Assembly: GCA_017520425.1 (NCBI GenBank)
Contig: JAFXFO010000002.1
Coordinates: 1 to 64,000 of the forward strand
DNA from: Lachnospiraceae bacterium
Lineage (GTDB): Bacteria > Bacillota > Clostridia > Lachnospirales > Lachnospiraceae
Direction of reading: 5' to 3'
Length of the DNA: 64,000 nt
A model generated the notes under the pieces. It was not told where the DNA came from and searched no databases. It saw only the letters and a list, made by a program, of their open reading frames with translations. This document shows positions 7,000 to 41,600 of the stretch, one piece after another. Within the stretch, counting starts at the first letter, position 1. Every line of letters starts with the position of its first letter. A program made the translations under genes and the position numbers.

Positions 7000-7017
7000 G
7001 TTTGTGTGGCGGATACT

Positions 7018-7270
7018 CATCCAAAAATGCAGAAATAGGAAATATGGCTTAGTATTTGGATTGAGAGAAGGCATGAAAGGAGGAAAAACTAAGCCAGTAA
7101 TGCAGAAACAGGAAAAATGGCTTAGTATTTGGACTGAGAGAAGACATGAAAGAAGGAAAAATTAAGCCAAAAATGCAGAAACAGGAAAAGTGGCTTAACT
7201 TTCTCACCGAGAAAAGGAAAAAGGGCAATAAAAATCATCCCAACTTCATAAAATTCAGAAATTGGGATGA
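7018..7270. repeat. Hairpin array 1: tandem 73-bp units with 21-nt loops
   Basis: Three consecutive units start 73 bp apart (CCA anchors at 7021, 7094 and 7167). Each has an arm ending CCA, a 21-nt A-rich loop containing ATGCAGAAA, and a second arm starting TGG. The clear pairs are ACTAAGCCA (7088-7096) with TGGCTTAGT (7118-7126) and TTAAGCCA (7162-7169) with TGGCTTAA (7191-7198). A fourth hairpin with other arms, TCATCCCAA (7235-7243) with TTGGGATGA (7262-7270), closes the array. It lies between the convergent alpha-xylosidase and membrane-protein genes. The same family occurs at 41.4 kb. Open reading frames here are just the repeat read through. Confidence 0.85.
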
Positions 7271-12637: not shown

Positions 12638-12799
12638 AAAAACAATATGGGACATAATTTCCTGCAAGCAAGGTCTTGCAAAACGTCGCCCCTTAGCGAG
12701 GTCCTAAGCCGAACTTGTTCGGCACGAGCTTAGTGGCGCTACGTTTTGGACGAAGCGAGAGCGCCCTTGCGGTAGGATGTTATGTCCCTAATTGTTTTT
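12638..12799 (+). ncRNA. Structured element copy 1 (conserved core, variable outer stem)
   Basis: The outer stem pairs AAAAACAAT and GGGACATAA (12638-12657) with TTATGTCCC and ATTGTTTTT (12780-12799). Inside are GCAAGG/CCTTGC, AAAACGT/ACGTTTT, a GCC/GGC step, CTAAGC/GCTTAG, a CCGAAC-TT-GTTCGG hairpin and GC-GAGA-GC. The core words CCTTAGCGAGGT, CGAGCTTAGTG, GCTACGTTTT and ACGAAGCG recur in copies 2 (17.5 kb) and 3 (39.2 kb), while the outer stems share no sequence. It lies between convergent thrS and the J-protein gene. I do not recognise the family. Strand is given by analogy with the other two copies, which follow plus-strand genes. Confidence 0.8.
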
Positions 12800-17504: not shown

Positions 17505-17708
17505 AATTTCTTATTTGTGCCTTGGGTAATAAGGTAAGGGAAAGCAGGCATATAATTTCCTGCAAGCAGGTCTTGCAAAACGTCGGCCCTTAGCGAGGTT
17601 TTTTCGAGCTTAGTGCCGCTACGTTTTGCACGAAGCGAGAGCGCCCTGCGGGAGGATGTTATATGCCTGCTTTCCACTTGTGAACATTGGGGGCACAAAT
17701 AAGAAATT
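17505..17708 (+). ncRNA. Structured element copy 2 (longest palindrome)
   Basis: Two perfect 17-bp outer helices stack around the conserved core. One pairs 17505-17521 with 17692-17708 (AATTTCTTATTTGTGCC and its complement). The other pairs 17539-17555 with 17659-17675 (GGAAAGCAGGCATATAA and its complement). Inside are GCAGG/CCTGC, AAAACGT/ACGTTTT and a GGC/GCC step swapped relative to copy 1. The small internal hairpin of copies 1 and 3 is reduced to a TTTTTT stretch. It starts 13 bases after the exchanger stop. Confidence 0.82.
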
Positions 17709-39134: not shown

Positions 39135-39324
39135 CGGAGAAGATTACATTGGACCCGGGGGATCATAATGTTCCAACGCAAGGCTCTTGAAAAACGTCGG
39201 CCCTTAGCGAGGTTTTAGGACGAAACTTGTTTCGTCACGAGCTTAGTGCCGCTACGTTTTTCACGAAGCGCAAGTGTGCCTAAGTGGAATATTATGGTTC
39301 TCCGGGTCCAGTTCATCCTCTCCC
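39135..39324 (+). ncRNA. Structured element copy 3
   Basis: A continuous 24-bp outer stem pairs 39151-39174 with 39286-39309. Four of its pairs are G-U, which argues for pairing as RNA. Further out, GGAGA (39136-39140) can pair with TCTCC (39319-39323). Inside, AAAACGT/ACGTTTT, GGC/GCC and CTTAGCGAGG...CGAGCTTAG are shared with the other copies. The inner hairpin is GACGAAAC-TT-GTTTCGTC where copy 1 has CCGAAC-TT-GTTCGG. It lies between cca and the cotS-like gene. Confidence 0.82.
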
Positions 39325-39344
39325 AAATCCATATCATCGGGAGG
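39320..39344 (+). promoter_or_regulatory. Possible Shine-Dalgarno-blocking hairpin before the CotS gene
   Basis: CTCCC (39320-39324) can pair with GGGAG (39339-39343), which is the ribosome-binding site of the gene at 39352. The left strand is the same segment that can pair with the far end of structured element copy 3, so the two structures exclude each other. Confidence 0.4.
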
Positions 39345-39351
39345 ACGGAAC

Positions 39352-40344
39352 ATGAATGACAGAGCGGTGACTCTTTTGGAGCAATATGATATAGAGATTA
39401 TCAAAACCGGAAAGGGCAGGGGCGCGATTCTATGTGACACCCCTCAGGGGACCTTGATTTTTAAGGAGTATGCGGGGACAGAGGCCAGACTGGCGGCGGA
39501 AAATCAATTATTGGAGACCATTGCGGTGAAAGGGCAGGTATTTACGGACGCCCTGATTCCTACCCGGGAAGGAACCTTTAGCGTGAAGGACAGGGATGGC
39601 ATCACTTATATCCTGAAAAACTATGTGGACGGCAGAGAATGCGATATTCACGAAAAGACCGAGTGTTTGACTGCCATGGAGTTGCTGGCCGGTTTACATA
39701 ATGCCATGGATGACCGGGATACGGAAGGAAAAGAGGATCCCGATTCCCCTTTGAAGGAATACGAGAAACGAAACCGGGAGCTGACCCATATCCGTAGCTT
39801 TTTGGGAAAAAAGGGACAGAAACAGCCTTTTGAAAGAGAGCTGAAGTGCTGCATCGACTTCTATCTGGAACAGGCGAAACAGGTGACGGAGGATTGGCGG
39901 TTGTATGAAGAAGGCAATATAGGGAAGGTATCACACGGCTTTTGCCATGGGGATTATCAATACCACAACATCCTTTTCGCAGAGGGAAAATGGTATGTGG
40001 TGAATTTTGAGAAATGTCATAGGGGAAGCCAGGTGACGGATATTTACCTGATGATGCGTAAGCTACTGGAGAAAAGTGATTGGTCCCGGGAATTGGGCAG
40101 GGATTTATTGGAGGCATATCAAAAGGTGCGCCCCATTGCGGCTTACGATTATGTGGATTTGTACTATCGGTTGGCTTATCCGGAGAAGTTTTGGAAAATT
40201 GCCAATTTTTATATGAACTCTCGCAAGTCATGGATCCCCGAGAAGAACATGGAGAAGCTGGGTAAGGTTCTGGCCCAGGAGGAAGCAAAGCAGGCCTTTT
40301 TAGAAGATGTTTTCGGGAACACGCTTTTTTCTAAAAATATTTAA
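39352..40344 (+). CDS. CotS-family spore coat protein (kinase-like fold)
   Basis: 330 residues. A phosphotransferase (APH/CotS-type) fold is visible: an N-terminal lobe with GTLIFKEYAG, ILKNYVDGRECD, and the catalytic-loop-like HGFCHGDYQYHNILF, then VVNFEKCHRGSQVTDIY, where the usual Asp of the DxD/DFG-type motif is Asn-Phe-Glu. CotS/YutH proteins are spore coat components of Firmicutes. This fits the sporulation genes at the right end. GGGAGGACGGAAC precedes ATG 39352; the longer reading from 39274 would run through the structured element. Confidence 0.82.
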   Translation: MNDRAVTLLEQYDIEIIKTGKGRGAILCDTPQGTLIFKEYAGTEARLAAENQLLETIAVKGQVFTDALIPTREGTFSVKDRDGITYILKNYVDGRECDIHEKTECLTAMELLAGLHNAMDDRDTEGKEDPDSPLKEYEKRNRELTHIRSFLGKKGQKQPFERELKCCIDFYLEQAKQVTEDWRLYEEGNIGKVSHGFCHGDYQYHNILFAEGKWYVVNFEKCHRGSQVTDIYLMMRKLLEKSDWSRELGRDLLEAYQKVRPIAAYDYVDLYYRLAYPEKFWKIANFYMNSRKSWIPEKNMEKLGKVLAQEEAKQAFLEDVFGNTLFSKNI

Positions 40345-41425: not shown

Positions 41426-41600
41426 AAACTAAGCCAGAATTGCAGATTTGCAGTTTATGGCTTAGTTTTTTTGGTATGAGAGGGAAGAAAAGCAAGGAAA
41501 ATTAAGCCAAAAATTGTAAAATTGGAGAAGTGGCTTAATTTCCCGAGTTATTTATACAAGAATGAAAGAAAAAACTAAGCCAGATTTTGTAGTTTTGAGG
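41426..41600. repeat. Hairpin array 2, same family as the 7.0-kb array
   Basis: Three units with arms ending CCA and starting TGG around a 21-nt loop. AAACTAAGCCA (41426-41436) pairs with TGGCTTAGTTT (41458-41468). AAATTAAGCCA (41499-41509) pairs with TGGCTTAATTT (41531-41541). AAACTAAGCCA (41572-41582) faces TGGGATGAA instead of its own complement. The unit spacing is 73 bp (41426, 41499, 41572), the same as in array 1. It lies between the DUF2441 gene and the sdpR promoter. Confidence 0.88.

Follow-up and report, generated by a model that had tools for sequence, protein, structure and literature searches.

A probable family of miniature transposable elements with a conserved folded core in Lachnospiraceae

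Three intergenic copies and their relatives

The window, a 64,000-nucleotide stretch of a Lachnospiraceae genome (contig JAFXFO010000002.1, positions 1 to 64,000), contains three copies of a long imperfect palindrome, and all three are intergenic. Copy 1 is flanked by the gene for a threonyl-tRNA synthetase and a convergent gene for a DnaJ-domain protein, copy 2 by genes for a sodium/calcium exchanger and a family-10 glycosyl hydrolase. On the two sides of copy 3 are genes of the poly(A)-polymerase/tRNA nucleotidyltransferase type and of the phosphotransferase type, and the start called for the latter overlaps the copy. The overlap comes from the GTG start called for this downstream open reading frame (window 39274-39351); judging from the sequence, the ATG at 39352, which follows GGGAGGACGG, may be the real start. 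The first-pass annotation had noted core words common to copies at 12.7, 17.6 and 39.2 kb, and we located all of them in copies 1, 2 and 3, respectively: CCTTAGCGAGGT at 12691, 17588 and 39202; CGAGCTTAGTG at 12725, 17605 and 39238; GCTACGTTTT at 12738, 17618 and 39251; and ACGAAGCG at 12750, 17630 and 39263. The self-complementary arms described for copy 1 were also found. The features of the three copies are given below, with the scores of R1, a covariance model built from 32 copies in 11 genomes of the genus, 20 of the 32 being from the window's genome.

12638-12655, plus strand: left outer arm of copy 1, with AAAAACAAT at 12638 and GGGACATAA at 12649, the latter extending into the core; pairs with 12781-12799
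12656-12780, plus strand: conserved core of copy 1 (R1 match, 113.9 bits), with closing stem, three-way junction, central stem and apical hairpin; the central stem has tandem G·A and T·T positions (non-standard pairs taken from the alignment)
12709-12722, plus strand: apical hairpin of copy 1, CCGAACTTGTTCGG
12755-12762, plus strand: mini-hairpin GC-GAGA-GC of copy 1, with a GNRA loop
12781-12799, plus strand: right outer arm of copy 1, with TTATGTCCC from 12780 and ATTGTTTTT at 12791
17505-17553, plus strand: left outer arms of copy 2, AATTTCTTATTTGTGCC at 17505 and GGAAAGCAGGCATATAA at 17539
17554-17659, plus strand: conserved core of copy 2 (R1, 111.5 bits)
17660-17708, plus strand: right outer arms of copy 2, TTATATGCCTGCTTTCC from 17659 and GGCACAAATAAGAAATT at 17692
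39151-39167, plus strand: left outer arm of copy 3, where GGACCCGGGGGATCATAATGTTCC begins at 39151
39168-39292, plus strand: conserved core of copy 3 (R1, 119.5 bits, the highest of the three window copies)
39293-39309, plus strand: right outer arm of copy 3; GGAATATTATGGTTCTCCGGGTCC spans 39286-39309

When folded, copy 1 formed a single long hairpin of -73.6 kcal/mol (z -7.6), and none of 200 shuffled sequences equalled it. The swap of GCC/GGC in copy 1 for GGC/GCC in copies 2 and 3, reported earlier as a compensatory change, is real. Moreover, the covariation on which the first reading was built held in the R1 alignment, where 106 cells with two-sided changes were counted against 29.7 in shuffles and 94.7% of the cells were paired (32 copies); the signal exceeded both the shuffled and the slid controls. 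The outer stems had been described as self-complementary within each copy and completely different between copies; the first part stands, but many copies share, by eye, a diverged GCAATTGGGGACATAA-type arm. The window also contains a 73-nt repeat in three tandem copies at 7015-7233, with a fourth copy far off at 41428-41500; copies 2 and 4 of this repeat contain the inverted pair ACTAAGCC..GGCTTAGT.

The copy number of three proved far too low: the window's genome has at least 35 R1 matches, and blastn gave 29 matches in it, two of them pieces of one copy. A search of related genomes with the covariance model found the structured core across the bacterial family, with R1 matches in 72 of 101 genomes of the genus, 129 of 299 in the family sample (128 of 298 by genus) and 11 of 391 in a class-wide sample, all 11 belonging to the same family. 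In the genome samples searched, the element is confined to this one bacterial family. A scan with the core pattern returned, among the matches listed, mostly Lachnospiraceae, Agathobacter, Acetatifactor and Pseudobutyrivibrio records, and some labelled only Clostridiales, Clostridia, Eubacteriaceae or bacterium. The element had not been recognised as a known class, and the comparison with Rfam bore this out: no family reached its gathering score, the best match by E-value being RefA5 (18.2 bits against a gathering score of 91) and another a 14-nt CRISPR-repeat match outside the core. A known RNA class was rejected on these grounds. Copy 1 as a blastn query had no match in phage and plasmid records, the exact core pattern had none in viral contigs, and one diverged copy (41.8 bits) was detected in a viral contig, L394 (L and G numbers are our handles for loci and genomes). 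In one genome, the 109-nt cores were near-identical at nine sites, three of them identical, with a median pairwise identity of 0.98 and differing arms.

Core, arms and orthologous sites

The analysis of the wider family was based on 237 model hits from two alignments, which were merged into 214 distinct copies, each flanked by no less than 100 nt on either side; the 23 hits removed were duplicates or too close to an end. From the outside inward, the unit would begin with short terminal inverted repeats, followed by arms that are long and variable, and then by a conserved core some 105-125 nt in length. The predicted fold of this core has a closing stem, a GNRA mini-hairpin at a three-way junction, and a central stem with a variable hairpin as its cap. 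The loop of the mini-hairpin was GNRA in 185 of 195 assigned loops and GNYA in none. The 10 non-GNRA assigned words were taken as misplacements, and most of the 19 copies (of 214) whose loop was left unassigned by the pattern show a GNRA-like word by eye. The T·T and tandem G·A positions were maintained in the core alignment.

Next, G·U and A·C cells were compared in the core. Over all columns, A·C against G·U gave 81 vs 40 in one alignment and 41 vs 42 in the other (G·U 82 vs A·C 122 when both were summed), and one fixed C·A position held 68 and 19 of the A·C cells, respectively. Without this position, which was dropped after the counts had been seen, the G·U:A·C ratios became 40:13 and 42:22 in the two alignments, 59:34 in 166 representatives less than 85% alike, and 19:7 in the inner helix plus mini-hairpin of the cluster representatives. 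Our claim that the core has no strand bias was withdrawn, since the A·C count came largely from that single position. G·U cells are rare in the core, at about 1.5% of cells. As a control, tRNA acceptor stems in the fetched loci gave 13:1 (only 17 tRNAs, with 17 of 119 acceptor cells being other mismatches); T-stem counts were unused, being out of register for many tRNAs (31 of 85 cells other). The G·U excess of the core is modest and small beside that of tRNA acceptor stems, and a folded single DNA strand would give the same excess. With its near-strict GNRA loop, the core may form a structured module within the element, as RNA or as single-stranded DNA.

The arms behaved differently from the core in this respect. 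Self-complementary arms beyond the model ends were present in 202 of the 214 copies (above the 95th percentile of swapped partners), with a median length of 38 nt. Their cells comprised 6572 Watson-Crick pairs, 293 G·U, 303 A·C and 938 other mismatches. Selection on an RNA strand would favour G·U over A·C, and the arms show no such preference, which argues that no RNA strand is selected there; the explanation that RNA selection keeps the arms paired was rejected on this count. Only 6 of the 214 copies had arms better than the best swapped pair, because subfamily members share arms. In the window's genome (G000), 21 of 26 copies have a left arm whose best fit among all arms is its own right arm; the corresponding counts were 5 of 9 in G185, 1 of 8 in G150 and, in an Agathobacter genome with arms common to different copies, 0 of 14. 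We read this as arms that move with the unit and later diverge yet stay paired within each copy. Ten ortholog comparisons showed 33 one-sided arm changes, six two-sided paired and four two-sided unpaired. Given these counts, the two-sided changes support palindrome correction too weakly to serve as proof of it, and the predominance of one-sided changes suggests that any correction of the arms acts weakly or slowly. Some copies of the window's genome (L013 and L020) are joined near the core to the hairpin string AGAGAACGTCCGGCGACGTTCTCT, followed by a GAATTGC..GCAATTC hairpin, and the latter is also found near the core in L029; these joined strings are perhaps nested elements.

The gene contexts of the copies were taken from simple ORF calls, which left 24 copies unclassed. 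Between tandem genes, the core was sense in 57 copies and antisense in 53; a further 41 copies lay between convergent and 19 between divergent genes, and 20 fell in ORFs of at least 80 aa that may be spurious. The median distance from the model end to a gene 3' end was about 50 nt.

Fetched stretches of the sister species G185, G399 and G400 allowed seven orthologous loci to be compared, at each of which two or more of the species have the element. At three of the seven, the core was inverted relative to the flanking DNA in one species. The inverted core at one locus was identical at 109 of 109 positions to its G185 ortholog, the next best match, at 102, being the G399 ortholog. This identity favours inversion in place over a new insertion; the DNA just beyond the arms was also rearranged at this locus. 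Presence and absence were likewise observed. The G185 copy at L308:10293 is absent from G400, where the flanks are 97% identical and the difference amounts to 184 bp, with a TGT repeat of 3 bp. A second G185 copy, at L333:11616, has no counterpart in G399, with a 167-bp difference; the interval in the outgroup G404 is also shorter at the latter site, from coordinates. The direction of both differences, insertion or deletion, is not beyond doubt. By eye, no palindrome was left at the empty site in G400, and the one in G399 has only a weak 8-bp palindrome; neither of these two empty sites supported an insertion into pre-existing palindromes or terminators. In G185, a single narrow and exact pattern for arms lacking a core had no match. 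The comparison of L306:2360 with G400 was rejected as an empty site, being by eye a partial deletion at ACTGTAT repeats. Regarding the window itself, G076 is without the element at the site of copy 2, in intergenic DNA too diverged to place the junction, and the neighbourhood of copy 1 has different genes in that genome. A second long palindromic repeat family, of about 250 nt, was met at L306:8215-8470 and L308:14840-14964, with dozens of matches in G399 and G400; its L308 copy has the apical sequence CCCGGTTTCAA..TTGAAACCGGGCA, and its sub-threshold hit to the plant miRNA family MIR2630 probably reflects just a long hairpin.

The first-pass annotation had concluded that covariation means, most simply, an RNA. 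For the element as a whole this is not supported, given arms with no strand preference, a core found in both orientations to the genes and inverted between sister species, and copies with 8-bp target duplications and IS66-type ends (see below); for the core only, the idea keeps some ground in the strand-specific signs, namely, the GNRA loops and the G·U excess outside the fixed C·A position. In its full form, the RNA explanation is a new structured non-coding RNA class, with a core selected as a plus-strand RNA fold and genes that are multi-copy by chance. It accounts for the covariation, for the GNRA loops and complete lack of GNYA, for the retained T·T and tandem G·A positions, and for the G·U:A·C ratios of the core and of its inner helix and mini-hairpin, yet those ratios turn to A·C excess or parity once the fixed position is counted, G·U is rare, its excess is small against the tRNA stems and nil in the arms, and the absent gene-orientation bias, the core inversions, the presence/absence differences, the target duplications and the lack of an Rfam match all speak against it. 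We consider such a class improbable, and the element is probably not a stand-alone regulatory RNA.

Very improbable, in our view, is a host-owned DNA or RNA site (e.g., a bidirectional terminator or a 3'-end stabiliser) that spread long ago and is now immobile. The many copies between convergent or tandem genes, close to gene 3' ends, would suit such a site, as would the missing matches of copy 1 in phage and plasmid records and of the exact core pattern in viral contigs; it sits badly with sites that vary between sister species, near-identical cores within one genome, the existence of target duplications, and the diverged copy in the viral contig L394.

Terminal repeats, target duplications and transposases

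Direct repeats of 8 bp beside GTTAC were first spotted in copies of one recently expanded genome. A search for ends, in which GTWAC-type, GTTAT and GTWGC words were allowed, gave 24 candidate pairs. Six of them, in six different copies, adjoin 8-mers with at most two mismatches, where about 0.1 was expected by hand calculation: the 8-mers are exact in L044, which is from the genus of the window's genome, and in L132, have one mismatch in L150, L170 and L203, and two in L147. The 8-mers of the remaining 18 pairs have at least four mismatches. A strict scan of the 2.26 Mb of fetched loci detected six end-plus-duplication units, four of them with R1, and two shifted-register controls gave none. 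The R1 units with ends and duplications measure 196-258 bp, leaving no room for a transposase inside. At a threshold of three mismatches (of 24) to the consensus, a pair of ends was recognised in 11 of 214 copies, where swapping the partners gave 0.5; the other 203, including all 26 tested from the window's genome, failed at this threshold, and no GTWAC word was found near the three window copies. The end search superseded a generic direct-repeat scan (10 of 213 copies at 8 bp or more, 1.8 expected), in which genuine repeats were mixed with chance ones. Target duplications of 8 bp are a sign of a DDE enzyme. The two units of the strict scan without an R1 core, L185:4986-5046 (61 bp) and L192:280-434 (155 bp), are MITE-like, with the same GTWACWGTTCA ends and one-mismatch 8-mers.

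The word GTWACWGTTCACACCC was present in 19 viral contigs and led to two units with exact 8-bp duplications, in L386 and L394; two other pairs from a looser scan were taken as chance, L324 because its ends are 7205 bp apart and L396 because they are off consensus. The L386 unit spans 2272 bp, has GTTACTGTTCACACCC ends and an exact TAAATGGA duplication, and encodes a 556-aa IS66-family transposase, which scored 110 bits, below the NCBIfam IS66 cut-off of 180 and above the Pfam cut-off. The only relative of this transposase in viral contigs was itself, and the L401 piece had none there. The L394 unit (195-1441, 1247 bp) contains a decayed ORF with no Pfam match, and the diverged R1 hairpin lies near one of its ends.

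Annotated IS66 elements were then searched for their ends without the use of any end motif. ISGka4 has a GTAACTATTCAGCC end and an exact 8-bp duplication, AACTCGTC on both sides; an Anoxybacillus IS66 element has the same GTAACTATTCAGCC end with CTAACGAC twice; and ISAva2 has a GTAAGGATTCAGG end with CGATAAAG twice. At two of five plasmid IS66 loci (L403 and L406) no ends were found, and the L401 locus is incomplete. In copies with intact ends, the end GTAACAGTTCAGCC matches the ISGka4 left end GTAACTATTCAGCC at 12 of 14 positions. On sequence likeness, the IS66-type ends GTWACWGTTCAS would make IS66 the best candidate for the mobiliser of the element. As such ends are seen in a minority of copies only, the link to IS66 reaches the other copies, including those of the window, by homology of the core.

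Neighbouring copies were frequently arranged as doublets. Thirty pairs less than 800 bp apart (29 distinct sequences) comprised 25 minus-then-plus, two plus-plus, three minus-minus and no plus-then-minus arrangements. At L042 and L062 (G084), one pair of ends encloses both outward-facing core copies, and no target duplication was found at these two doublets. The single Y1 gene found in the window's genome is IS200-type (156 aa), and its 3.4-kb locus has no R1 match. Y1 genes were found in 22 of 72 genomes with the element, against 14 of 29 without it, and only 3 of 14 genomes with at least 30 R1 matches have one. We give only the slimmest chance to a REP/REPIN-like element moved by a single-strand HUH (Y1, or RAYT) transposase, which would fit the minus-then-plus pairs through their likeness to REP dimers (accessible text of PMC3733652) and was rejected because Y1 is neither linked to R1 nor associated with the element, with the 8-bp duplications pointing to a DDE enzyme instead.

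Nature of the element and relation to known repeats

Collectively, we think it probable that each copy is a non-autonomous intergenic mobile DNA element, i.e., a MITE, and that a single long imperfect palindrome makes up its entire length. A minority of copies show terminal inverted repeats (11 of 214) or a target-site duplication (six copies), the units have no internal transposase, and insertion polymorphism against sister species was observed at two G185 loci. The copies in which the terminal repeats are recognisable may be the young ones, and those with no IS66-type ends would be decayed members. An IS66-type DDE transposase acting in trans would move, or would have moved, the element by its ends. 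Intrachromosomal recombination between the two arms, or template switching from one to the other, may correct, invert and delete the palindromes as DNA, and in this manner the arms could stay self-complementary while diverging. Palindrome correction at the DNA level would also explain the core inversions and the absent G·U preference in the arms.

The conservation of the core, with its GNRA loop and covariation, goes beyond what a passive MITE needs. Selection on the fold may account for it, serving either mobility or an influence of the transcript on mRNA 3' ends, and exchange between copies may also contribute. It is conceivable, though unlikely, that the core works as a folded module, of RNA or of single-stranded DNA, whose GNRA loop serves for docking and which is carried by IS66-type MITEs; the transposase would then spread a ready-made structured 3'-UTR element throughout the bacterial family, and the arms could flip its orientation in place.

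A MITE with these properties has parallels among known repeats, from which it was set apart by features. ERIC elements, or intergenic repeat units, of enterobacteria are intergenic imperfect palindromes of about 130 nt. The accessible sources give a unit of 127 bp and many copies (PMC10969869), and to that extent ERIC is like our element; the arms here are long and highly variable and 8-bp target duplications occur. The Correia element of Neisseria is, in the accessible parts of PMC10969869 and PMC2649163, a MITE, short and intergenic, that has a conserved core between inverted repeats and occurs in more than 120 copies; inversion and RNase III cleavage are reported for it. It differs in its host, whereas our element has IS66-type ends with 8-bp duplications and an apical core that covaries across many genera. 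REP, BIME and REPIN sequences are also palindromic, intergenic and frequent as inverted dimers, as far as the accessible text of PMC3733652 and PMC3116915 goes; REPs have 20-40 bp, GTAG or CGTC tags and, for GTAG, RAYT transposases, in contrast to units with intact ends of 196-258 bp and no Y1 association. Finally, IS66 elements of the ISGka4 and ISAva2 type have ends that begin with GTAACTATTCAGCC or GTAAGGATTCAGG and flank exact 8-bp duplications, as here, whereas our element carries the R1 hairpin instead of a transposase. No description of the element was found in the literature searched, in which an unannotated entry among the 250 palindromic candidates in the supplement of PMC8040213, a source accessible in part, is possible.

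The repeats are best interpreted as a new MITE family that combines IS66-type ends with a folded core of unusual conservation. Within the Lachnospiraceae it would be a large family, with a structured core retained from genus to genus. RNA discovery can be misled by long DNA palindromes such as these, which imitate RNA covariation; the count of G·U against A·C, together with the orientation test, helps to tell a palindrome from an RNA. With cores inverted between sister species, inversion driven by the palindromes can be tested directly. Should the core act in transcripts, many 3' ends would be tuned at once.
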